A stretch of DNA of 37,340 bases from Pleomorphomonas sp. (lineage in GTDB: Bacteria; Pseudomonadota; Alphaproteobacteria; Rhizobiales; Pleomorphomonadaceae), in contig JAUVXG010000023.1 in assembly GCA_030603685.1 (NCBI GenBank), positions 1-37,340 on the forward strand. The letters run 5' to 3'. Below are positions 14,209 to 31,628 of the stretch, one piece after another (position 1 is the first letter of the stretch; each line of letters starts with the position of its first letter). Both the position numbers and the translations under genes were made by a program. The notes beneath the pieces were generated by a model. The model searched no databases and was not told the origin of the DNA. It was given only the letters and a program-made list of their open reading frames with translations.

Positions 14209-14600
14209 TCCGAACGGCTGAGCGTCTGACGACACAGTGCATCAGACCAACGGGGCGATTTGCTCGCAGGCAAGTGTGATATAAGTTTAATCAAAATTAA
14301 CTATGACGAGGATGCAAAGGCCTGGGGAGTCACGGCCATCATGCATGATTTTGGGACATTGATGACGATTTCCATATGGCATGCGGCTTGCAGCCGGGTT
14401 TTTGTGGCCTGCGCTGACGCTGAGCTTTGCGCTGGTTGCATGGGCTTCCCGCTTTTCAGGCAGGCGACTCGGCTTGCGGGATTAGGGGAAATCCACTAGT
14501 TTGGTAAATGTTTTGTTATCTCGGAGTGATCGTTGCGGCTGTTTGAGCCGGACCTTTTCCGAAGTTTTTTGAAGTTGATTTTTGCCTTTTGGGGGATGTA
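14209..14600. other. 392-base gap upstream of the sugar transferase gene
   Basis: No convincing gene. The DNA is richer in A and T than its surroundings. It holds a perfect 12-bp palindrome, ATCATGCATGAT, at 14338-14349, and T-rich runs close to the next start. It probably carries the regulated promoter and a long leader of the exopolysaccharide gene. Confidence 0.5.
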
Positions 14601-15440
14601 ATGCGTCTAACGGACCTTACCCAGGATTTTTCCAAGGGCGGCGCCGAGAGTTCGTCGGGATTGCGCGAACTGACGCCTGCCGAAGGCGGATATTCCGCTC
14701 GCCATACGGCTTCCGCCAGCAAGGTACGCGTCACCTCAACGTCGGCCTTTTCGGCCGGTCAGGCGATGGCGTTGGCTTCCTTCGGCGGGGCCACTCTCGA
14801 TCAAGAGGAAGTTGATAGTCAGGTTAACTGGCGGCCCGCGCATCTCGTCGCCAAGCGGCTGGTCGACGTTGTGGGGGCCGCTTTCGGCCTGCTCCTGCTG
14901 TCTCCGCTTCTGATCGCGGTCGCCGCGATCATCAAGCTCACCAGCGCCGGGCCGGTATTCTTCCGCCAGGAGAGAACGGGACTCGGCAACAAGCCCTTCC
15001 AGATTCTCAAGTTCCGGTCGATGTACACCGATCGCTGCGATCTTTCGGGCGTCGCCCAGACGGTTGCCGACGATCCCCGTGTAACGCCGATCGGCCGCAT
15101 CATTCGCAAGACCAACATTGATGAGCTACCGCAGCTCATCAACGTCCTGTTGGGCGACATGTCGCTGGTCGGCCCCCGCCCGCACGTCCCGGGCATGCTG
15201 GCCGCCGGCGTCCGCTACGAGGAACTCGTGATCGGCTACGAGCGTCGGCACGCCATGCGCCCCGGCATCACCGGGCTTGCCCAGGCCAATGGCTTGCGCG
15301 GCCCGACCACCGAGGTGGAACCGTCGGTGATGCGAGTGGTGCGCGACATCGAGTATATTCGCAACTTCTCGATCTGGCTGGACATCCGCATCCTCTTCCG
15401 CACCGTGATCAACGAAATCCTGCGCGGCAAGGGTTTCTGA
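14601..15440 (+). CDS. Undecaprenyl-phosphate sugar phosphotransferase, ExoY-like
   Basis: A 279-residue monotopic phosphoglycosyl transferase that moves a sugar-1-phosphate to undecaprenyl phosphate, the first step of exopolysaccharide repeat-unit assembly. A low-complexity Ser/Ala-rich N-terminal stretch of ~75 residues precedes KRLVDVVGAAFGLLLLSPLL, the re-entrant membrane helix. The catalytic core follows: GPVFFRQERTGLGNKPFQIL, KFRSMYTD, then TNIDELPQLINVLLGDMS with the catalytic Asp-Glu pair, and LVGPRPHVPGM. ATG 14601 follows GGGGGA; a TTG at 14589 is a weaker choice. It lacks the N-terminal five-helix part of WbaP-type proteins. The ExoP-like gene nearby fits the same pathway. Confidence 0.88.
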   Translation: MRLTDLTQDFSKGGAESSSGLRELTPAEGGYSARHTASASKVRVTSTSAFSAGQAMALASFGGATLDQEEVDSQVNWRPAHLVAKRLVDVVGAAFGLLLLSPLLIAVAAIIKLTSAGPVFFRQERTGLGNKPFQILKFRSMYTDRCDLSGVAQTVADDPRVTPIGRIIRKTNIDELPQLINVLLGDMSLVGPRPHVPGMLAAGVRYEELVIGYERRHAMRPGITGLAQANGLRGPTTEVEPSVMRVVRDIEYIRNFSIWLDIRILFRTVINEILRGKGF

Positions 15441-17255: not shown

Positions 17256-17510
17256 ATGGATTCATCCGAGTTCGATGTTCGCAACGCAATTGGTCTCGTC
17301 CGACGCCAGATTTGGCTCATTCTTTCAACTGTTCTGATTATCGTCGGTTTGGCAGCCGTCTATGTTTTCCTGCAGACACCGACCTACACCGCCTCGACAT
17401 TGATCCTGGTCGATCCTCGGCAGAAGAACGCCCTCGACCCGGAAAGCCAGATGTCGCTTCTGACCACCGACAACGCACGGGTTGAAATCGAAGTCGAGAT
17501 TCTGAAATAG
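17256..17510 (+). pseudogene. ExoP-like Wzz/BY-kinase gene, N-terminal fragment ended by in-frame TAG
   Basis: The 84 residues from ATG 17256 are the start of a polysaccharide co-polymerase: a short cytoplasmic tail, a membrane helix (IWLILSTVLIIVGLAAVYVF), then TASTLILVDPRQKNAL of the Wzz domain and VEIEVEILK. In homologues this last segment runs on into a Ser/Arg-containing stretch and a conserved helix. Here a TAG codon (17508-17510) interrupts it, and the same frame continues at once with PSTQIEAISRLGLVKDPEFG and stays open to 19412. One base change (for example TCG to TAG) explains the break. Together the two parts give about 718 codons, normal for the family. A sequencing error, a nonsense mutation or amber readthrough are the choices. 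Confidence 0.85.
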
Positions 17511-17597
17511 CCGTCGACCCAGATCGAAGCGATTTCACGCCTTGGCCTGGTCAAGGATCCCGAGTTCGGCGTCAGGCTGAGTACCGTCGACCGCTTG

Positions 17598-19412
17598 ATG
17601 GTCTTCTTCAAGATCAAGACGATGGAAAACCTGCTGGCCGACACCGATGCCCAGTTGCGTGCGGTGTTGACCCGTTTCTCCGACAACATCACCATCGCCC
17701 GTCGCGGTCTGACCTACGTCATCAGCGTCTCCGCCACCTCGGCCGACCCCGCCAAGGCGGCGCTGATCGCCAACACCCTCTCGTCGACCTACATCGACGC
17801 CCAGGTCGACGCCAAGATCTCCAACGCCCTCAGCGTGCGCGACGCGCTCAACCGCCGCCTCGCCCAGGCATCGACGACCATCAACCAGACCGAGAACCGC
17901 ATCGACGCCTTCGTCAACGAGAACATAGAGAAGGTCTCGAACGAAAGCACCCGCGCCGATATTTCGGCCATGCGCTCCAGCCTGGAGGCCCTCAAGGCTG
18001 AAAGCATATCGGCCCAATCGCTGCAGGCCAGCGTCGCCAGCCTCGCCGCCAACAAGGACTGGGACGGCATCGCCGCCCAATTGCGATCGGACACGGTCAG
18101 TCAGATCAAGGCCGAACGCGACAAGGTGCTGGCCGACATCGGCAATGCCGCAGCCGGCTCGACGCGGGAGAGCAATCTGCGCGCCAGCCTCGCCCGGCTC
18201 GACGAGCGTTTGGCGGATCAGGTGAATGTCGAACTCGGCACACTGTCCGATCGGGTCAAGACGGCCCAGCAGGAACAGGACCGGTTGCGGACATCCATCC
18301 GCGACACCGTCTTGTCCAGCAATCTCTCCAACGACATCATGGTCAAGATCTACGAACTCCAGCAGGAGTCATCGGTCGCCAAGACGCTTTATCAGGACCT
18401 GCTGCAGCGCCTGCGCGGGGTGGAAACGCAGGCCGACCTGCAGCTCGCCGACAGCCGCATCGTATCCTCGGCGCTCCCGCCCGACCAACCGAGCGCTCCG
18501 AAGACCAAGCTGATCCTGACTCTGGCGCTTGTCGCGGGCCTGGGCCTGGGCCTGGGGTTGGCCTTCCTCAACGAGAACTTCATCGGCGGCTTCACCTCCG
18601 ACCAGCAGTTCGAGGCGGTGCTCGGCGTGCCGGTCATCTCCTCAATTCCGCTGCTGTCGCGGGCCGGTCGCTCGATCACCGAGAGATCGCAGGTGGCCAG
18701 CGAGCTTCTCGACCATCCGCTGACCGCCTACAGCGAGTCGATCCGGCGAATCCGGCTCGGCCTTGAGAACATGTTGAGGCGCAAGTTGCAGGACAAGGCC
18801 CGCGAGGGCGGGTTGATCGTCATGGTCGGCTCGGCCATCCCGGGCGAAGGCAAGACGACCACGGCCATCGCCATCGCCCGCGCCTTCGCCATGTCCGGCA
18901 AGCGCGTCCTGCTCGTCGACTGCGACCTCCGGCGTCCATCCGTCGCGCCTTCCCTCAACCTTACGCCGGAAAACGGTCTGGCCGATTATCTGACGCTGTC
19001 GCTCGATTCCCAGTCGATCCGCCAGTTCGTCACCAAGGACAAGGTCCCGGGTCTCGACATGATCGTCGGCAAGAACACCCACAGGACCTCCACCGACAGC
19101 CTGATCGAAACGGCGCAGTTCAACCTCCTGATGGAGCTCGCCAAGGAGCGCTTCGAGATCATCGTGCTCGATACGCCGCCGATCCTGCCGGTGGTCGATG
19201 CCCAGTATCTTGCCACCCGCGCCGATATCGTCACGCTGGTCGTTCACTGGGCTTCGACCTCCCAGCGCGATGTCCGCTCGGCCATCAACGACCTCAGGAC
19301 CACCGCCGGCGAGGATTTGCCGATCGCCGCCGTGCTGTCCAAGGCCGAACTCGGCGTCGGATCCTATCGGAACAAGTACAACAGCTACTACTATTACGCG
19401 CCGGAAAGCTGA
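17598..19412 (+). CDS. ExoP-like Wzz/BY-kinase, C-terminal part with tyrosine kinase domain
   Basis: About 604 residues in the same frame as the fragment at 17256-17510; a TTG at 17595 is an alternative start and neither has a ribosome-binding site. The first ~290 residues are periplasmic coiled coil. A second membrane helix follows (LILTLALVAGLGLGLGLAFL), preceded by the Pro-rich motif SALPPDQPSAPK. The cytoplasmic BY-kinase has Walker A GEGKTTT, Walker A' LLVDCDLRRPS, Walker B IIVLDTPPILPVVDA, and a C-terminal Tyr cluster (YNSYYYYAPES) for autophosphorylation. Such proteins set chain length and drive export of exopolysaccharide. Without the first membrane helix this part alone is unlikely to insert correctly, so the gene is probably defective unless the TAG is read through. 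Confidence 0.8.
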   Translation: MVFFKIKTMENLLADTDAQLRAVLTRFSDNITIARRGLTYVISVSATSADPAKAALIANTLSSTYIDAQVDAKISNALSVRDALNRRLAQASTTINQTENRIDAFVNENIEKVSNESTRADISAMRSSLEALKAESISAQSLQASVASLAANKDWDGIAAQLRSDTVSQIKAERDKVLADIGNAAAGSTRESNLRASLARLDERLADQVNVELGTLSDRVKTAQQEQDRLRTSIRDTVLSSNLSNDIMVKIYELQQESSVAKTLYQDLLQRLRGVETQADLQLADSRIVSSALPPDQPSAPKTKLILTLALVAGLGLGLGLAFLNENFIGGFTSDQQFEAVLGVPVISSIPLLSRAGRSITERSQVASELLDHPLTAYSESIRRIRLGLENMLRRKLQDKAREGGLIVMVGSAIPGEGKTTTAIAIARAFAMSGKRVLLVDCDLRRPSVAPSLNLTPENGLADYLTLSLDSQSIRQFVTKDKVPGLDMIVGKNTHRTSTDSLIETAQFNLLMELAKERFEIIVLDTPPILPVVDAQYLATRADIVTLVVHWASTSQRDVRSAINDLRTTAGEDLPIAAVLSKAELGVGSYRNKYNSYYYYAPES

Positions 19413-19477: not shown

Positions 19478-19581
19478 ATGTTTGCCGAGCAGCATTTTGA
19501 CCGCAGCGGACTCTATCCTGCGTTGACGTCCGGAACCCCCGAGACTAGAGCTTGTCATCCCCACGCTTGACGGAGCCACCC

Positions 19582-20661
19582 GTGAAGCTTCTGCTGCCAT
19601 TGATCGTCGCGTGCTCCATTGTCACGTCGCCCTTACTCGCTGACGACTCGTCGAGCGCCGGAAGCCGCCCAGTCGCCATCCGTGTAACCACCGCCGAGCT
19701 GGAACCGTATGCCGAAACGCTGATTCTGACCGGCGAGATCCGCGCACGCACATCCTCCCAGCTGTCGTTCCGCGTCTCCGGGCGGATCGCAGAACGCTTT
19801 GTCGGGGTTGGCGATCACGTCGATGCTGGAGATCTCCTCGCCCGCCTCGACCCCAGCCAGCAACAGGCCGACGTCGCCAACGCGGAGGCGGCGCTCGCTG
19901 CCGCGCAAGCCGGCGCCCGTCAGGCCACGTCGGCCTTCGAACGCCAGAAGTCGCTGCTCGACAAGGGCTTCACGACACAATCGGCATTCGATGCCGCCAT
20001 GAAGGCGGTGCGAACGACGGCAGGCACCGTCGAGTCGGCCAAGGCGGCCCTCGATATCGCCCGCGCCAATCTCGCCTATACCGAGCTGCATGCCGATACC
20101 GACGGCGTCGTCACCGCCCGAACGGCCGATGCCGGCGAGATTGCCGCCGCCGCCCGGCCGATCTTCGTGGTCGCGGCCGATGGCCCGCGCGATGCCGTGT
20201 TCGACGTTTACGAGCAACTGTTCCTGTCGATCAACGAATTGCCGGACGTCACCGTCGGCCTCATCAAGGATCCGTCCCTCACGGTGTCGGGCAAGGTGCG
20301 GGAGATTTCCCCGACCGTCGAGACACGAACAGGCACCGTGCGCGTGAAGGTCGATGTCGGCATCCCGCCGGCGGCCATGAGTCTCGGCGCCCCGGTCACC
20401 GGTCGCATCGAAGGACGCAAGACGTCCGCCGTGTTGCTGCCGGCCAGCGCTCTCGCCGAGAAAGACGGCGCCGCCGCGGTCTGGGTGGTGGCAACCGACG
20501 GCAAGACCGCCGAGCGTCGTCCAGTCGACATCCTCGCCTATACGACCAGGGACATTGTGGTCGAAACGGGGATTGCCGAAGGCGATCGCGTCGTTACCGA
20601 TGGCGCCAAACTGCTCCGACCCGGAGCGACAGTAGAGATCGTCTGGGAGGAGAAGACATGA
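19582..20661 (+). CDS. RND efflux periplasmic adaptor subunit (first of two)
   Basis: A 359-residue membrane fusion protein. GTG 19582 follows CGGAG and gives a signal peptide (VKLLLPLIVACSIVTSPLLA), so it is preferred to the TTG at 19552. Domains run in the usual mirrored order: beta-barrel, lipoyl half (GRIAERFVGVGDHVDAGDLL), a coiled-coil hairpin (residues ~85-160, Ala-rich with FERQKSLLDKGFTTQ), second lipoyl half (YTELHADTDGVVTARTADAG), beta-barrel and membrane-proximal domain (ALAEKDGAAAVWVV). It links an inner-membrane RND pump to an outer-membrane channel. Its stop overlaps the start of the second adaptor by four bases (ATGA), so the genes are translationally coupled. Confidence 0.88.
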   Translation: MKLLLPLIVACSIVTSPLLADDSSSAGSRPVAIRVTTAELEPYAETLILTGEIRARTSSQLSFRVSGRIAERFVGVGDHVDAGDLLARLDPSQQQADVANAEAALAAAQAGARQATSAFERQKSLLDKGFTTQSAFDAAMKAVRTTAGTVESAKAALDIARANLAYTELHADTDGVVTARTADAGEIAAAARPIFVVAADGPRDAVFDVYEQLFLSINELPDVTVGLIKDPSLTVSGKVREISPTVETRTGTVRVKVDVGIPPAAMSLGAPVTGRIEGRKTSAVLLPASALAEKDGAAAVWVVATDGKTAERRPVDILAYTTRDIVVETGIAEGDRVVTDGAKLLRPGATVEIVWEEKT

Positions 20662-21773
20662 CCCGCAGCTTGCTCCTCGCATTTCTGGCCGGCCTTGTGC
20701 TGGCGGCCTGTCAGGAGGAGACGGCGCCTCCACCGCCGGTGCGCCCCATCCTGTCGGCCCGGGTGGCGGTCGATGCGGCCGACCAGCAGGCCTTCGTCGG
20801 AACGGTCGAAGCGCGCGACAAGGTCGATCTGGGATTTCAGGTCCTCGGCCGGCTGCTGACGAGAACCGTCGACGTCGGCGACACGGTTCGTTCCGGCGAG
20901 GTCATCGCCACCATCGACGCCACCACGCTCGATCTCGCCGTCCGGTCTGCCGAGGCCGCGCTCGGCAACCGGCGGGCCGAACGGGAGAACGCCGCCGCGA
21001 CCGTCACCCGCGTCGAGACATTGCGCGCCAGCGGAACCGCGGCGGAAGCCAGCCTGGAAGACGCTCGCACCGCCTACGACGCCGCGGACGCCGCCGTTCG
21101 CCAGGCGGAAGCCGATCTGGCCAAGGCGCGCGACGCGCTTGGATATGCGGAACTCAGGGCCGGCTTCGACGGCATCGTCACCACAACCGGTGCCGAACCC
21201 GGCCAGACGGTGGCCGCCGGCGAGAGCGTCGTCACCATCGCCAAACCCGATCCCCGCGACGCCGTCATCGACGTGCCCGACTGGCTGGTGAGCACGCTGC
21301 CCCCGGCCGCGCCTTTCGTGGTCGCTCCCCAGATCGCCCCCGACCAGGCGATTGTGGGCCGGCTCAGGGAAATCGCACCGGACGCCGACCCCCTGACGCG
21401 CACCCGTCGCCTCAAGATCGCGTTGTCGGAACCACCCAGCCTGTTCCGTCTCGGAACCACCGTCGAGGTGCGGGCCGACCGGCAGGCAAGTCCGAACATC
21501 ACCTTGCCAGAAACGGCCATACTCACGCGAGACGGTGAGGCCTTCGTCTGGGTTGTCTCCGTCGACGAGACAAGCACCGCCCTCCGGCGCGAGGGCACTG
21601 TCGCCTTGAGGAAGGTGACCACCGCGCCAGCCGACCAAGGGCGTCTCCGCATCGTCTCCGGACTTTCCGCTGGCGAACGGGTTGCGATCGCGGGCGTTCA
21701 CAGCCTTCAGGACGACCAGAAGGTCATCGTGCCGGCGGATGGCCCAGGGGGCACCGAGGGAGACGCGCTGTGA
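20658..21773 (+). CDS. RND efflux adaptor subunit, lipoprotein (second of two)
   Basis: A 371-residue membrane fusion protein with a lipoprotein signal: MTRSLLLAFLAGLVLAAC, lipobox LAAC with Cys18, so it is anchored to the inner membrane. Lipoyl halves are seen at VLGRLLTRTVDVGDTVRSGE and YAELRAGFDGIVTTTGAEPG, with a coiled coil between them (residues ~95-160). It is only loosely similar to the first adaptor, so the pair is not a recent duplication. The start overlaps the previous stop (ATGA) and the stop overlaps the pump start (GTGA). Two adaptors before one pump is the arrangement of the Pseudomonas TriABC system, where both are needed. Confidence 0.9.
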   Translation: MTRSLLLAFLAGLVLAACQEETAPPPPVRPILSARVAVDAADQQAFVGTVEARDKVDLGFQVLGRLLTRTVDVGDTVRSGEVIATIDATTLDLAVRSAEAALGNRRAERENAAATVTRVETLRASGTAAEASLEDARTAYDAADAAVRQAEADLAKARDALGYAELRAGFDGIVTTTGAEPGQTVAAGESVVTIAKPDPRDAVIDVPDWLVSTLPPAAPFVVAPQIAPDQAIVGRLREIAPDADPLTRTRRLKIALSEPPSLFRLGTTVEVRADRQASPNITLPETAILTRDGEAFVWVVSVDETSTALRREGTVALRKVTTAPADQGRLRIVSGLSAGERVAIAGVHSLQDDQKVIVPADGPGGTEGDAL

Positions 21774-24700
21774 AGAGGTTCAATCTCTCGGACTGGTCGC
21801 TCGATCACAAGTCCCTCGTCTGGTACTTCATGATCGTCTTCACGCTGTTCGGCGTGTTCTCCTACATCAATCTCGGTCGGGAGGAGGATCCCTCCTTTAC
21901 CATCAAGACCATGGTGGTCCAGGCCTATTGGCCCGGCGCATCGGTCACGGAGATGACCCGACAGGTCACCGATCGCATCGAGAAGAAGCTGCAGGAGCTT
22001 CCCAACCTCGACTTCACCCGCAACCTGACGCGCCCAGGCGTCACCACGGTCTTCGTCAATCTGCGCAACGACACCAAGGCGTCCGATGTCGACGGGACCT
22101 GGGTCAGGGTGCGCAACCTCGTCTCCGACATTCGTGCCGAACTGCCGGATGGCGTGATCGGTCCGTTTTTCAACGACGACTTCGGCGACGTCTACGGCAA
22201 CATCTACGCACTTACGGCCGACGGCTTCACGCCGCGCCAGCTTCGCGACTATGCCGAGGATATCCGCACCCGCATCCTTTCGGTCGAGAACGTCGGCAAG
22301 GTCGTTATCGTCGGCGCCAAGGACGAGGTCATCTACCTCGAGTTCTCGCCGCGCCAGCTCGCCGCCTATGGCGTCGACGAAAAGGCGGTGATGACCACAC
22401 TGGCCGAACAGAACGCCGTCAATCCGTCCGGCACCATTGAAACGGGCTCCGAACGCGTGTCGGTGCGCGTGTCGGGCGAGTTCCGCTCGGAAAAGAGCAT
22501 CGAGTCGGTCAATCTCCGCGTCAACGGACGCTTCTTCCGCCTGTCCGACGTGGCGAAGATCACCCGCGGCTACGCCGACCCGCCAACGGAACTCTTCCGC
22601 TACAACGGCGAGCCGGCCATCGGCATCGCCATCGGCATGCGGGCTGGCGCCAACCTCCTGAAGTTCGGCGATGCTCTGCGCGCCGAAATGGCGAAAATCG
22701 AAGCCGGGCTTCCGATCGGCATCGCCGTGCACCAGGTCGCCGATCAGCCGAAGCTGGTGGAAAAGGCGGTGTCCGGCTTCACGCAGGCGCTGTTCGAGGC
22801 GGTCGCCATCGTTCTCCTGGTCAGCTTCGTCAGTCTCGGCTTGCGCGCCGGCGTGGTGGTGGCCTTGTCCATTCCACTGGTCCTCGCCATCACCTTCATG
22901 GTCATGGAGGCCTCGGCCATCTCCCTGCAACGCGTGTCGCTCGGCGCGCTGATCATCGCATTGGGCCTTCTGGTCGATGATGCCATGATTGCCGTCGAGA
23001 TGATGGTCGCGCGCCTCGAAAAGGGCGACACTCTCAGGAAGGCGGCCACCGCCGTCTACACGTCCACCGCCTTTCCTATGCTGACCGGCACGCTGGTCAC
23101 CGTGGCCGGCTTCATTCCCGTCGGCCTCAACTCGTCGATGGCCGGCGAGTTCACCTTCACCATGTTCGTCGTCATTGCCGTGTCGCTGCTGGTGTCCTGG
23201 ATCGTCGCCGTCGTGTTCACGCCGCTGATCGGCGTCACCGTGCTCCCGGCGAAACTGAAGCACCAGAAGCCCGAGAAAACCCGCTTTACCAAAGGTTTCG
23301 AGCGCCTGCTCATCCTGGGGCTCCGCAACCGCATCATCGTCATCGGCTTGACGCTCCTGGCCTTCGGCGCTTCGCTCTACGGCCTTACCCATGTCCAGCA
23401 GCAGTTTTTCCCCGACAGCGACCGCTCCGAGCTGATCGTCGATTTCACCCTGCCGCAGAACGCCGCCATCGAGGAAACCGCCCGCGTCGTCTCCCGCTTC
23501 GAGACGGACATGCTGGCCGGCAAGGACGGTGTCGATCACTGGTCGTCCTACATCGGACGCGGCGCGGTGCGCTTCCTGCTCACCTTCGACCAGGAACCGG
23601 CCGCTCCTTATTTAGGGCAGATCGTCGTCGTCACGCGCGACGAAGAAACGCGCGACCGCCTCAAGGCGGAGTTCTCCGACTATCTTCATCGCACCTTCCC
23701 GGGCGTCGACAGCTTCGTCCGTCTCCTGGAGATCGGTCCGCCCGTCGGACGGCCCGTCGCCTACCGTCTGTCAGGGCCGGACATCGAAAGCGTGCGGGAG
23801 GAATCCGGCCGCCTCGCCGCGATCGTCGCCGCCAATCCTCATGTCGACAGTGTCGTGGCGGACTGGGGCGAACCCGGTCGCGTTGTCAAGGTCGACGTCA
23901 TGCAGGACAAGGCACGACTGCTCGGCGTTTCCTCTCAAGACATCTCCAACGCGCTTTATGGCATCATCGGCGGCGCCACGGTCACCAAGATCCGCGACGA
24001 CATCTACCAGATCGACGTCATCGGACGCGCGGTGCCCGAAGAGCGCAACTCAATAGAAACACTGAAGAACCTGCAGCTCGCCACCCAGACCGGCACGAGC
24101 GTGCCGCTCGCCGCCGTCGCCAATCTCCACTACGAGCTCGAACAGCCGGTGGTGTGGAGCCGCAACCGCTTGCCGACGATCACGGTCAGGGCGGCGCGTG
24201 CCGATGCGACCCAGGCGGACACCATCGTCGATCAGCTAAGGCCCGATATCGATGCCTTCGCCGCCACCCTGCCGGCCGGCTACAAGGTGGAGACGGCCGG
24301 TTCGGCCGAGGAGTCGCAGAAGGCGATGGCGCCCATCGTCGACGTCGTGCCGCTGATGGTCTTCATCATGCTCACGGTGTTGATGATCCAGCTCCAGAGC
24401 TTCAGCCGCCTGGTGCTGGTGGTGGCGGTGGCGCCGCTGGCGCTGATCGGCGTGGTGGCAGCGCTTCTGCCGACGGGCGCGCCGCTTGGCTTCGTCGCCA
24501 TCCTCGGCGTGCTGGCGCTGATCGGCATCCTCATCCGCAACTCGGTGATCCTGGTCGACCAGATCGAGCGGTTGCGAGCCGAAGGCATGCCGGCGTGGAA
24601 CGCCGTGGTCGAGGCGAGCGGCCACCGGTTCCGGCCCATCGTGCTGACGGCCTTGGCGGCCAGTCTCGGCCTCATTCCGATCGCCAACGAGGTATTCTGG

Positions 24701-24829
24701 CAACCGATGGCCTTCGCCATGATGGGCGGCATCATCGTCGGCACGGCCCTGACGCTGATCTTCCTGCCGGCGCTCTACGTCACCTGGTTCCGGATCCATG
24801 AAGAGCCGCCAGAGGCTCTGGCGGCCTGA
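21770..24829 (+). CDS. RND efflux pump, inner-membrane permease subunit
   Basis: A 1019-residue HAE-1/AcrB-type proton antiporter. Membrane helix 1 (WYFMIVFTLFGVFSYINLG) is followed by the first large periplasmic loop, helices 2-6, a second periplasmic loop (residues ~535-850) and helices 8-12. The proton-relay pair D403-D404 lies in LGLLVDDAMIAVE (helix 4). In helix 10 the segment GILIRNSVILVDQIE has R923 where AcrB has Lys940. It starts with GTG at 21770, overlapping the adaptor stop. No outer-membrane factor gene follows, so a channel encoded elsewhere must be shared. Substrates are unknown; drugs, detergents or phenolics are usual. Confidence 0.92.
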   Translation: MKRFNLSDWSLDHKSLVWYFMIVFTLFGVFSYINLGREEDPSFTIKTMVVQAYWPGASVTEMTRQVTDRIEKKLQELPNLDFTRNLTRPGVTTVFVNLRNDTKASDVDGTWVRVRNLVSDIRAELPDGVIGPFFNDDFGDVYGNIYALTADGFTPRQLRDYAEDIRTRILSVENVGKVVIVGAKDEVIYLEFSPRQLAAYGVDEKAVMTTLAEQNAVNPSGTIETGSERVSVRVSGEFRSEKSIESVNLRVNGRFFRLSDVAKITRGYADPPTELFRYNGEPAIGIAIGMRAGANLLKFGDALRAEMAKIEAGLPIGIAVHQVADQPKLVEKAVSGFTQALFEAVAIVLLVSFVSLGLRAGVVVALSIPLVLAITFMVMEASAISLQRVSLGALIIALGLLVDDAMIAVEMMVARLEKGDTLRKAATAVYTSTAFPMLTGTLVTVAGFIPVGLNSSMAGEFTFTMFVVIAVSLLVSWIVAVVFTPLIGVTVLPAKLKHQKPEKTRFTKGFERLLILGLRNRIIVIGLTLLAFGASLYGLTHVQQQFFPDSDRSELIVDFTLPQNAAIEETARVVSRFETDMLAGKDGVDHWSSYIGRGAVRFLLTFDQEPAAPYLGQIVVVTRDEETRDRLKAEFSDYLHRTFPGVDSFVRLLEIGPPVGRPVAYRLSGPDIESVREESGRLAAIVAANPHVDSVVADWGEPGRVVKVDVMQDKARLLGVSSQDISNALYGIIGGATVTKIRDDIYQIDVIGRAVPEERNSIETLKNLQLATQTGTSVPLAAVANLHYELEQPVVWSRNRLPTITVRAARADATQADTIVDQLRPDIDAFAATLPAGYKVETAGSAEESQKAMAPIVDVVPLMVFIMLTVLMIQLQSFSRLVLVVAVAPLALIGVVAALLPTGAPLGFVAILGVLALIGILIRNSVILVDQIERLRAEGMPAWNAVVEASGHRFRPIVLTALAASLGLIPIANEVFWQPMAFAMMGGIIVGTALTLIFLPALYVTWFRIHEEPPEALAA

Positions 24830-24834
24830 CGTCA
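24805..24834. repeat. Palindromic end of two convergent genes
   Basis: GCCGCCAGAG (24805-24814) and CTCTGGCGGC (24816-24825) are perfect inverted arms around one G, inside the last codons of the RND gene. Next to them, TGACGTCA (24827-24834) contains the TGA stops of both genes, one on each strand. It may act as a shared hairpin for transcript ends, but no T-run follows. Confidence 0.45.
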
Positions 24835-26375: not shown

Positions 26376-27395
26376 CTAGGGTCCCCAATAGAAGGCAGCG
26401 TCCGGCAGATGGCCGGCAACGATGTCGGGCGACAGCGTCATGAGGGCGTTGAAATAGGCTTCGAGGTCGGACTTGGCTTCGAGCGCCGACGCGACTTTCA
26501 GCCGAAAGCGCGGCAACGAAGCCTCGACGATCGGTACCGGCAGCTTCAGCGGATCGGCGATCAGCGCGGCAGCCGCCCTCGAATTACCGGCGACCCAGCC
26601 TGCCGCCGCCACCGACGCGGCATGCAGCGCCCCGACGACGTCGGGATGGGCGTCGAGGAATGCTCCGGTCACCGCGAGGCCAGCCTGCGGAATGCCGGCC
26701 GGCCGGCCGCTGCGGGCCGCGTAGAGTTCGGTCACGTCGAGAGCACGGGCAACGGAAACGCCGGCTTGCTTCGCCTTGATCTCGGCGGCGCTGGCCGCCG
26801 GTTCCGGCAGCACGGCGGCATCGGCCTTGCCGGCCAGCAGCAGGGGCACCGCCTCCGCCGACGTCCCGACATAGGAGAGAGTGATGTCCCGGTCCGGGTC
26901 GAGCCCCGCCGATTTCAGCACGAAGCGGGTCAGAAGGTCCGGAGCATCGTTCTTGGCGCCGACCAGCAGCGTCTTGCCGCGAAGATCCTCGACGGTGTCG
27001 AGACGAACGCCCTGGCCAGCAAAGACGTAGAGCAGCCCCCAGGTCAGCACGTTGACGAGCCTGACGCCGGCACCGCGATTGAAGAGGTTGGCGGCGGCAT
27101 AGGTCGGCGCTGCGAACAACGCGATGTCGCCCGAGACAACGCCCGCCCGCATCTGGTCGGCCGTACGCCAGACCTCGAAGCGTGCATCGCCAGCCAGCGG
27201 CGCCAACGCACCCGAGGCCACAGCACGCGCCAGCACGACCGAGGGCGACGCCGGCATGCCCCAGACGGTCAGGCGATCGAGGGTGGCAGCATCCGCCTTG
27301 GTCAGCGCCGGCAACCCGACGAGACCGGCTGCAATGGCCGCACACTCGATGAAGTGGCGGCGGCTCATGCCAACGGGCATGGAGGAAACTGTCAT
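26376..27395 (-). CDS. ABC transporter substrate-binding protein, NMT1/SsuA-like, probable Tat export
   Basis: A 339-residue periplasmic binding protein. The N-terminus has a twin-arginine-like signal (MSRRHFIECAAIAAGLVGLP, cleavage near ADA). The mature part reads LTVWGMPASPSVVLARAVAS, then a lobe with VSGDIALFAAPTYAAANLF, the hinge region DLRGKTLLVGAKNDAPDLL, and LLAGKADAAVLPEPAASAA, the usual layout of SsuA/TauA/ThiY proteins. The ligand (a sulfonate, nitrate, thiamine precursor or other small molecule) cannot be told. ATG 27395 has an AGG upstream; ATGs at 27380 and 27368 are possible starts. First gene of its operon, transcribed away from the hydrogenase genes. Confidence 0.86.
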   Translation of the reverse strand: MTVSSMPVGMSRRHFIECAAIAAGLVGLPALTKADAATLDRLTVWGMPASPSVVLARAVASGALAPLAGDARFEVWRTADQMRAGVVSGDIALFAAPTYAAANLFNRGAGVRLVNVLTWGLLYVFAGQGVRLDTVEDLRGKTLLVGAKNDAPDLLTRFVLKSAGLDPDRDITLSYVGTSAEAVPLLLAGKADAAVLPEPAASAAEIKAKQAGVSVARALDVTELYAARSGRPAGIPQAGLAVTGAFLDAHPDVVGALHAASVAAAGWVAGNSRAAAALIADPLKLPVPIVEASLPRFRLKVASALEAKSDLEAYFNALMTLSPDIVAGHLPDAAFYWGP

Positions 27396-29777: not shown

Positions 29778-31628
29778 ATGTGCAACGTCGAAACCCTCAT
29801 CCCCGTCGGCGCCGAGGCGACGATCAACGTCAAGATCAACGGCAAGGCCATCACGGCCTACCCGAACGAGACGATCCTCGCCGCCGCCCGCCGGCACGAC
29901 TTCTACATCCCGACGCTGTGCGAGCTGGCGGATATCGACCACACGCCCGGCACCTGCCGCGTGTGCTTGGTCGAGATCCAGATGCCGGGCCAGGCCAACA
30001 CCCACATGGTGACGGCCTGCAACACGCCGGTTAAGGAAGGCCTCGCCATCGAGACGCGCACCAAGAAGGTGCGCGACATGCAGAAGCTGCAGGTCGAACT
30101 TCTGATGGCCGACCACCTTCAGGACTGCGCGACCTGCATCCGTCACGGCTCTTGCGAGCTGCAGGACGTGGCGCAGTTCGTCGGCCTCAAGGAAAACCGC
30201 TTCTTCGACCCGATCCGCGTCGCCGCTCGCGAGGTCGACCGCTCGTCGCCCGCCATGGTTCGCGACATGACCAAGTGCATTCGCTGCCAGCGGTGCGTCG
30301 CGGTCTGCCGCAACTATCAGGAAGTCGACGCGCTGGTCGTCACCGGCACCGGTCTCGACACGGCGGTCGGCCTGCGTCACGGCAAGAACCAGAAGGACTC
30401 GACCTGCGTCACCTGCGGCCAGTGCGTGCTCGTCTGCCCCACCGGCGCCCTCGCCGAGAAGGACGAGACCGATCGCGTCCTCGACTACATCTACAATCCG
30501 GAGATCACCACCGTCCTCCAGTTCGCGCCGGCCATCCGCGTCGGCTTCGGCGAGGAGTTCGGCATGGCGCCGGGCACCAACGTCGAGGGGCAGATCATCG
30601 CCGCCGCCCGCAAGCTGGGTGTTGACGTGGTGCTCGACACCAACTTCGGCGCCGACGTGGTGATCATGGAGGAAGGCACCGAACTTCTGCATCGCCTGGG
30701 CGAGAAGAAGAAGCCGACCATCACCTCCTGCTGCCCGGCCTGGATCAACTTCGCCGAGATCCACTATCCGGAACTCCTGCCGATGCTGTCCTCCACCCGC
30801 TCCCCGCAGGCGGTGGTCGGCGCCATCGCCAAGAGCTATCTGCCGGGGAAGATGGGGCTCGACCCCAAGCAGATCCGCGTCATCTCCATCATGCCTTGCA
30901 CGGCCAAGAAGGACGAGATCGTCCGGCCGCAGCTCGGCGAGGACGGAATGCCGGATGTCGACGTCGTGCTGACGACGCGCGAGTTCGCCCGTCTTCTGAA
31001 GCGCGAAGGCCTTGATCTCTCCACCATGGAGAAGTCGACCTTCGACAACCCCTACATGAGCGAGTACACCGGCGCCGGCGCCATCTTCGGCACCACCGGC
31101 GGCGTCATGGAGGCGGCGCTTCGCACCGTCTACAAGGTCGTCAACGGCAAGGAACTCGACAAGATCGAGCTGACCCAGCTGCGCGGCTTCGAGGGCGTGC
31201 GTTCGGCCACCGTCGACCTTGGCGGCAACATCGGCGAAGTCAAGATCGCCATGGCCCATGGCCTCGGCGAGACCCGCGCCTTGATGGAAGCAATCAAGGC
31301 CGGCGAAGCCGATTTCGACTTCATCGAGATCATGGCCTGCCCGGGTGGCTGCGTCGACGGCGGCGGCACGCTCCGCTCCAAGAAGCAGTATCTGCCCTAC
31401 GCCCTCAAGCGGCGCGAGACGATGTTCAACATCGACCGCAACGCCAAGGTGCGCCAGTCGCACAACAACGAGCAGGTCAAGGCCCTCTACCGCGACTTCC
31501 TGGGTTCCCCGAACTCCGAGAAGGCGCACCACCTCCTCCACACGTTCTACAACGACCGCAAGGCCGAGATGGAACTGACGGTCAAGGAGATCTGGGGCGA
31601 GATCAAGATGAGCACCATGATCTACTGA
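29778..31628 (+). CDS. hydA: [FeFe] hydrogenase catalytic subunit, CpI-like (group A)
   Basis: A 616-residue enzyme for reversible H2 production or uptake. Cofactor sites in order: N-terminal [2Fe-2S] (C48, C60, C63, C81), His-ligated [4Fe-4S] (H113, C117, C120, C126), two ferredoxin [4Fe-4S] clusters (C167/170/173/177 and C210/213/216/220), and the H-cluster domain. H-cluster motif 1 is TSCCPAW (316-322, C318 as likely proton-relay Cys), motif 2 is MPCTAKKDE (372-380), motif 3 is EIMACPGGCVDGGGTL (517-532), where the usual GGGxP ending is GGGTL. The small-subunit-like C-terminal tail (HHLLHTFY) is present. No signal peptide, so cytoplasmic. Maturases HydE, HydF and HydG must be encoded elsewhere. 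ATG 29778 sits behind AAGGAG. Confidence 0.95.
   Translation: MCNVETLIPVGAEATINVKINGKAITAYPNETILAAARRHDFYIPTLCELADIDHTPGTCRVCLVEIQMPGQANTHMVTACNTPVKEGLAIETRTKKVRDMQKLQVELLMADHLQDCATCIRHGSCELQDVAQFVGLKENRFFDPIRVAAREVDRSSPAMVRDMTKCIRCQRCVAVCRNYQEVDALVVTGTGLDTAVGLRHGKNQKDSTCVTCGQCVLVCPTGALAEKDETDRVLDYIYNPEITTVLQFAPAIRVGFGEEFGMAPGTNVEGQIIAAARKLGVDVVLDTNFGADVVIMEEGTELLHRLGEKKKPTITSCCPAWINFAEIHYPELLPMLSSTRSPQAVVGAIAKSYLPGKMGLDPKQIRVISIMPCTAKKDEIVRPQLGEDGMPDVDVVLTTREFARLLKREGLDLSTMEKSTFDNPYMSEYTGAGAIFGTTGGVMEAALRTVYKVVNGKELDKIELTQLRGFEGVRSATVDLGGNIGEVKIAMAHGLGETRALMEAIKAGEADFDFIEIMACPGGCVDGGGTLRSKKQYLPYALKRRETMFNIDRNAKVRQSHNNEQVKALYRDFLGSPNSEKAHHLLHTFYNDRKAEMELTVKEIWGEIKMSTMIY

Follow-up and report, generated by a model that had tools for sequence, protein, structure and literature searches.

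The closest described systems to the gene considered here are Wzc, the capsule tyrosine autokinase and co-polymerase (PDB 7nhr and related structures), and the ExoP-type exopolysaccharide transport family (TIGR01005). Small lesions are known to arise in capsule genes, wzc among them: evolved non-capsulated Klebsiella acquired frame changes and premature stops in wcaJ, wzc or rfaH (PMC9376106). In Rhizobium mutants with shorter variants of PssP, a co-polymerase of similar general kind, short chains dominate the polymer (PMC5748678). A nonsense variant described elsewhere affects a gene whose inactivation increases cellulose (PMC4643108) and is not used as support. Among papers on Pleomorphomonas and exopolysaccharide, judged by title or the start of the abstract, nothing was found on the gene considered here. 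We describe this ExoP-like gene, interrupted by an amber codon, in a Pleomorphomonas-type draft genome (4.75 Mb, 296 contigs, 96.11% complete); the window analysed is the whole of one contig (C119), 37,340 bases long.

An interrupted co-polymerase gene

Direct translation of the ORF at 17256-19412 (+ strand) gives 84 codons, a TAG at 17508-17510, 633 further codons and a TGA at 19410-19412, with no other stop in frame. The 5' part (17256-17507, +; 84 codons) matches the Wzz domain (PF02706, 6.9e-15, residues 5-84) and comprises most of that domain together with a hydrophobic stretch that, by eye, we took as the first membrane helix; also by eye, AAGGAAG lies upstream of the annotated start at 17256. 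The remainder (17511-19412, +) holds the end of the Wzz domain, GNVR (PF13807, 2.6e-11), a second hydrophobic stretch seen by eye and, after it, an AAA domain of the BY-kinase type (PF13614, AAA_31, 2.1e-14), followed by a tyrosine-rich tail reading YYYYAPES and the TGA. In profile searches Wzz was found at the N-terminus both of the 5' part and of the intact orthologue, and GNVR followed by AAA_31 exceeded the cut-off in both the window and that orthologue. The motifs IPGEGKTT, LLVDCDLRRP and IIVLDTPP, which we take to be Walker A, A' and B, respectively, are all read downstream of the TAG, as is YYYY, which agrees with an earlier note on this DNA that had described the catalytic motifs and tyrosine tail as intact. 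The domains and motifs of the Wzc/ExoP architecture with a BY-kinase domain are consequently all present, and what is missing is a single uninterrupted frame. The predicted structure is poor (mean pLDDT 51.7) and carries no weight in what follows.

The two sides of the TAG share one frame and, by translation and domain matches, one family, so the same note was right that an in-frame amber codon splits one gene. Codon 85 is a sense codon in all 11 orthologues found in the genus (serine in 10, alanine in one). Since 10 of these genomes have the frame open along the whole gene, and the eleventh (G011) is frameshifted only further on, the TAG is an interruption, not something met by chance in an unrelated reading frame; a private stop in a frame that is open in 10 other orthologues also counts in favour of a null allele. 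The nearest named relatives, Pleomorphomonas sp. JP5 and NRK KF1, each show 97% identity across the 633 residues that follow the stop.

Downstream of the TAG the first in-frame starts are TTG 17595, ATG 17598 and ATG 17622, and inspection by eye of the 20 bases preceding each revealed no ribosome-binding site, in line with the claim that the downstream part lacks a good start. These codons would nonetheless be available to a split gene, in which both the short Wzz product and a kinase initiated within 17595-17622 are functional, and some co-polymerases do function as two chains. Against this, the restarts lie at least 84 bases past the stop with no visible ribosome-binding site, their product would have neither the first hydrophobic stretch nor the beginning of the Wzz fold, and no orthologue among the 11 has a stop at codon 85. 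We consider two working chains at this locus very improbable.

It was similarly proposed that the amber codon might be suppressed, and amber suppression or programmed readthrough, with UAG read as an amino acid and the full-length kinase still made, would accord with the constraint that the downstream sequence retained until recently (see below). In addition, 37 tRNAs were found here and 43 in the sister genome (G008), and the assembly might thus lack a suppressor; by eye, however, 36 of the 37 tRNA scores recur in the sister's list. Among these 37 tRNAs, from a draft that is short of some (family search, with anticodons by ARAGORN), none has a CUA anticodon, and the one leucine tRNA with anticodon TAG decodes a leucine codon and does not suppress amber stops. 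The best match to PylS in the 96% complete draft scored 22.8 bits against a cut-off of 178.15, so that the pyrrolysine system is not indicated, and release factor RF1 is present. TAG is used as an ordinary terminator, ending two of the 19 window genes that were read (26379-27395 was left out of this tally), and it does not occur at codon 85 in any of the 11 orthologues. Given this evidence, the proposal of a suppressor found no support and readthrough appears as remote a prospect as a split gene. Stops inside ABC domains were also considered and were of no use, the strongest matches alone being listed. Nor did phase-like loss, another suggestion of the note, find support, as the lesion consists of a point change with no repeat tract visible by eye at the TAG site.

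The genes around the interrupted ORF are in good order. A bacterial sugar transferase gene at 14589-15440 (+; PF02397, 1.1e-63) is intact, as are the downstream RND efflux genes identified by domain matches at 19552-24829 (+; two adaptors and a permease), which are probably unrelated to the kinase gene. In three relatives (G008, G013 and G001), about 11 kb of extra DNA is present between the RND permease gene and the next gene, with the same junction in each (24797-24832). The ORF at 29778-31625 encodes an [FeFe] hydrogenase resembling the NADH-dependent group A6 (743.8 bits, just under the model cut-off of 765), for which the fetched stretches of the same three relatives, cut short by the extra DNA, contain no homologue. 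A plasmid search gave no match for the window, and no tRNA genes or Rfam families reached the gathering score within it.

Private changes near the stop and the age of the lesion

A base was called private where the relatives are unanimous at that position, and by this rule 17256-17510 contains only three private changes, at 17463, 17488 and 17509. The first two are missense changes, P70T (17463) and S78I (17488, both +), at residues that are invariant in all nine aligned relatives. The earlier statement that no residues are missing or added apart from the stop therefore stands for length, which is unchanged around the TAG in an alignment with nine named relatives, but residues 70 and 78 are also altered. 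All three changes belong to one transversion class, lie within 47 bases and alter the protein, and the bases concerned are identical in 11 of 11 orthologues. Between P70T and S78I, position 17477 also differs, silently, from each of the six relatives compared, which disagree among themselves.

With random placement over the compared part of the window, a same-class triple this tight has P ~0.04, in a test chosen after the cluster was seen; three of 29 protein-changing codons falling within 16 codons has P ~0.03, also chosen after seeing it; and, given the stop, finding at least two more private protein changes no further than 16 codons from it on either side has P ~0.006, again selected after the fact. 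The tightest same-class triple in the sister spans 280 bases. Changes accumulating after inactivation would be expected all along the gene, so a local error, a multi-base mutational event or chance accounts better for the patch at 17463-17509. The presence of two further same-class private missense changes at invariant residues within 46 bases 5' of the stop thus counts against a null allele and brings forward the alternative that the draft consensus is mistaken over a short patch (~17463-17509), the organism itself having an intact gene.

This local error, which we place close behind a null allele and regard as nearly as likely, with a substantial chance of being correct though somewhat below even, is favoured by the three private protein-changing, same-class changes in 47 bases at otherwise identical positions, by the post hoc probability given the stop, and by the draft nature of the 296-contig assembly. 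A second close pair of the same class, at 20644 and 20656, points the same way. These two private protein-changing differences, 12 bases apart, give G365W and P369T in the last codons of the RND adaptor at 19552-20661. On the other side, the sister also has close same-class pairs (6606/6612 and 8674/8679), and when class is disregarded the patch is no tighter than other triples, which span as little as 4 bases in the sister and 21 in the window. The patch lies in the middle of the contig, and within it the transversion class occurs in both orientations, which a single damaged strand would not be expected to give. The rest of the window is normal in both ratio and spectrum: 32 of 216 private changes here belong to the transversion class of the patch, compared with 34 of 224 in the sister, and the spectra are alike. 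Over the same 8,010 codons, private protein-changing and silent codons number 29:159 here (stop included) and 25:147 in the sister. Since there is no window-wide excess of private protein changes, the contig is not poor overall and a generally poor consensus is unlikely, an observation that also favours a null allele. The suggestion of a sequencing error accordingly gains strength locally from the three changes, although no such sign extends across the window as a whole.

The region after the stop bears on the age of the lesion. It contains 14 private base changes, of which 11 are silent and three change the protein: V361I, at a conserved residue, and changes in codons 262 and 314, at residues that vary among relatives. 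Neutral expectation is ~3.4 protein-changing changes per silent one, whereas 1:11 was seen on a strict count and 3:11 on a loose one, and the upper 95% bound on the fraction of the branch spent without constraint is ~13% (strict) or 21% (loose). On these ratios any loss of constraint is recent, which bears out the recency in the note's reading of a very recent mutation. Downstream constraint until recently is among the points in favour of a null allele; a very recent lesion, an error and readthrough would all agree with this pattern, which does not discriminate between them.

The gene in other Pleomorphomonas genomes

At the DNA level, 11 of the 13 other genus genomes searched carry the gene, or 12 of 14 with the window's own. 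The remaining two (G010 and G012) have distant relatives only, at best 30% and 27% identical, on which basis the gene looks dispensable in the genus. In the single-contig genome G011 the orthologue is split by a one-base deletion in a run of C (~1048830-1048880 of C1, in L158), and the homologues of all 19 other compared window genes are intact. This separate frameshift in the same gene, with its compared neighbours unbroken, is further evidence for a null allele here; it lies in a C run, however, and could itself be a homopolymer error.

To place these lesions in context, intactness (cover of at least 85% and no stop) was scored for 20 window genes of our choosing in nine genomes, comprising this one and eight relatives (G005, G006, G007, G010 and G012 are outside the table); other stop-bearing ORFs, which overlap better conserved genes, were set aside. 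Of the 180 gene-genome cells, 172 were intact, in five the gene was absent from the fetched stretch, one had an internal deletion and two were the lesions in the ExoP-like gene. The deletion is in the G009 homologue of the ROK-family gene at 1710-2639, which is ~207 bases shorter than in the window and whose flanking sides share one frame. Among the 20 genes, only the ExoP-like one carries a stop in the window's genome, and the other 19 are intact. Under random placement, two lesions both falling in one of 20 genes has P ~0.06, and some gene receiving two lesions, when the G009 deletion is counted as a third, has P ~0.18. With these values, and with the G011 lesion possibly an error, recurrent loss of the ExoP-like gene is suggested rather than proven, and the weakness of the coincidence counts against using it for a null allele. 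A fuller version, in which recent, lineage-specific inactivation recurs in Pleomorphomonas and a multi-base event produced the three same-class transversions in 47 bases here, would build on two separate single-base lesions in 12 gene-bearing genomes and two genomes without a close copy; we think it unlikely, albeit less so than readthrough or a split gene.

A survey for broken genes elsewhere in the genome used 168 well-covered sister ORFs in the fetched parts, 61 of them gene-like by our filter, and excluded the ExoP-like gene, which spans two fetched stretches. It flagged 10 of the 61, and 10 of 65 in the reverse direction. Those inspected by eye (all 10 of the first list and three of the 10 in the second) were mostly ends of overlong ORFs, compensating pairs of indels and likely shadow ORFs; others did not clearly fall into these groups, for example a 488-codon ORF on C240 with a stop at its codon 352. 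As the survey was small and its filter crude, we claim neither a clear second case of an interrupted gene nor the absence of one.

Predicted consequences of the stop and comparison with known systems

Taking the evidence together, we lean, with slightly better than even confidence, towards a null allele: an ExoP/Wzc-like polysaccharide co-polymerase, of the kind that ends in a tyrosine-kinase domain, has recently lost its function through a nonsense mutation, the amber base being one that we infer to be real in the cells. Only 84 codons would then be translated, enough for one membrane helix and an incomplete Wzz domain, and the GNVR region, the kinase and the tyrosine tail would not be made. 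With these parts lacking, the polymer that this protein would lengthen and export would be expected to be missing, shorter or altered. Two other Wzz-domain proteins (on C153 and C3), which match the downstream half at only 25% identity and outside the kinase domain, are kept in the genome and might conceivably replace it.

If the stop is real, Pleomorphomonas joins the bacteria that lose polysaccharide kinases by single mutations, and we speculate that the loss could mark a change in the cell surface, against phages or for another lifestyle. If it is an error, the case shows again why a lone stop in a draft genome should be checked against reads. Either outcome would be ordinary biology and would change no general idea.

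The name of the gene should be read with its family matches in mind. TIGR01005 is the best NCBIfam match of the intact orthologue (residues 5-689, 1.5e-69), but the score of 235 bits is well below the cut-off of 411.7, so by that model the orthologue is not a member of the ExoP-type family; 'ExoP-like', the term used in the earlier note, is a fair name for the architecture and not a family assignment. The likeness to Wzc is comparable: the intact orthologue matches it over residues 3-680 (E 1.9e-27), and Wzz, GNVR and AAA_31 follow in the same order, with a tyrosine-rich tail. It differs in that the orthologue scores 124.8 bits against the 1068 of NCBI's Wzc equivalog cut-off, and the window gene sits outside any visible capsule cluster and has its stop at codon 85. 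The comparison with evolved Klebsiella (PMC9376106) sets sequenced clones and a phenotype there against one draft consensus here, and the likeness between the two cases is in the small lesions, which in Klebsiella abolish the capsule.
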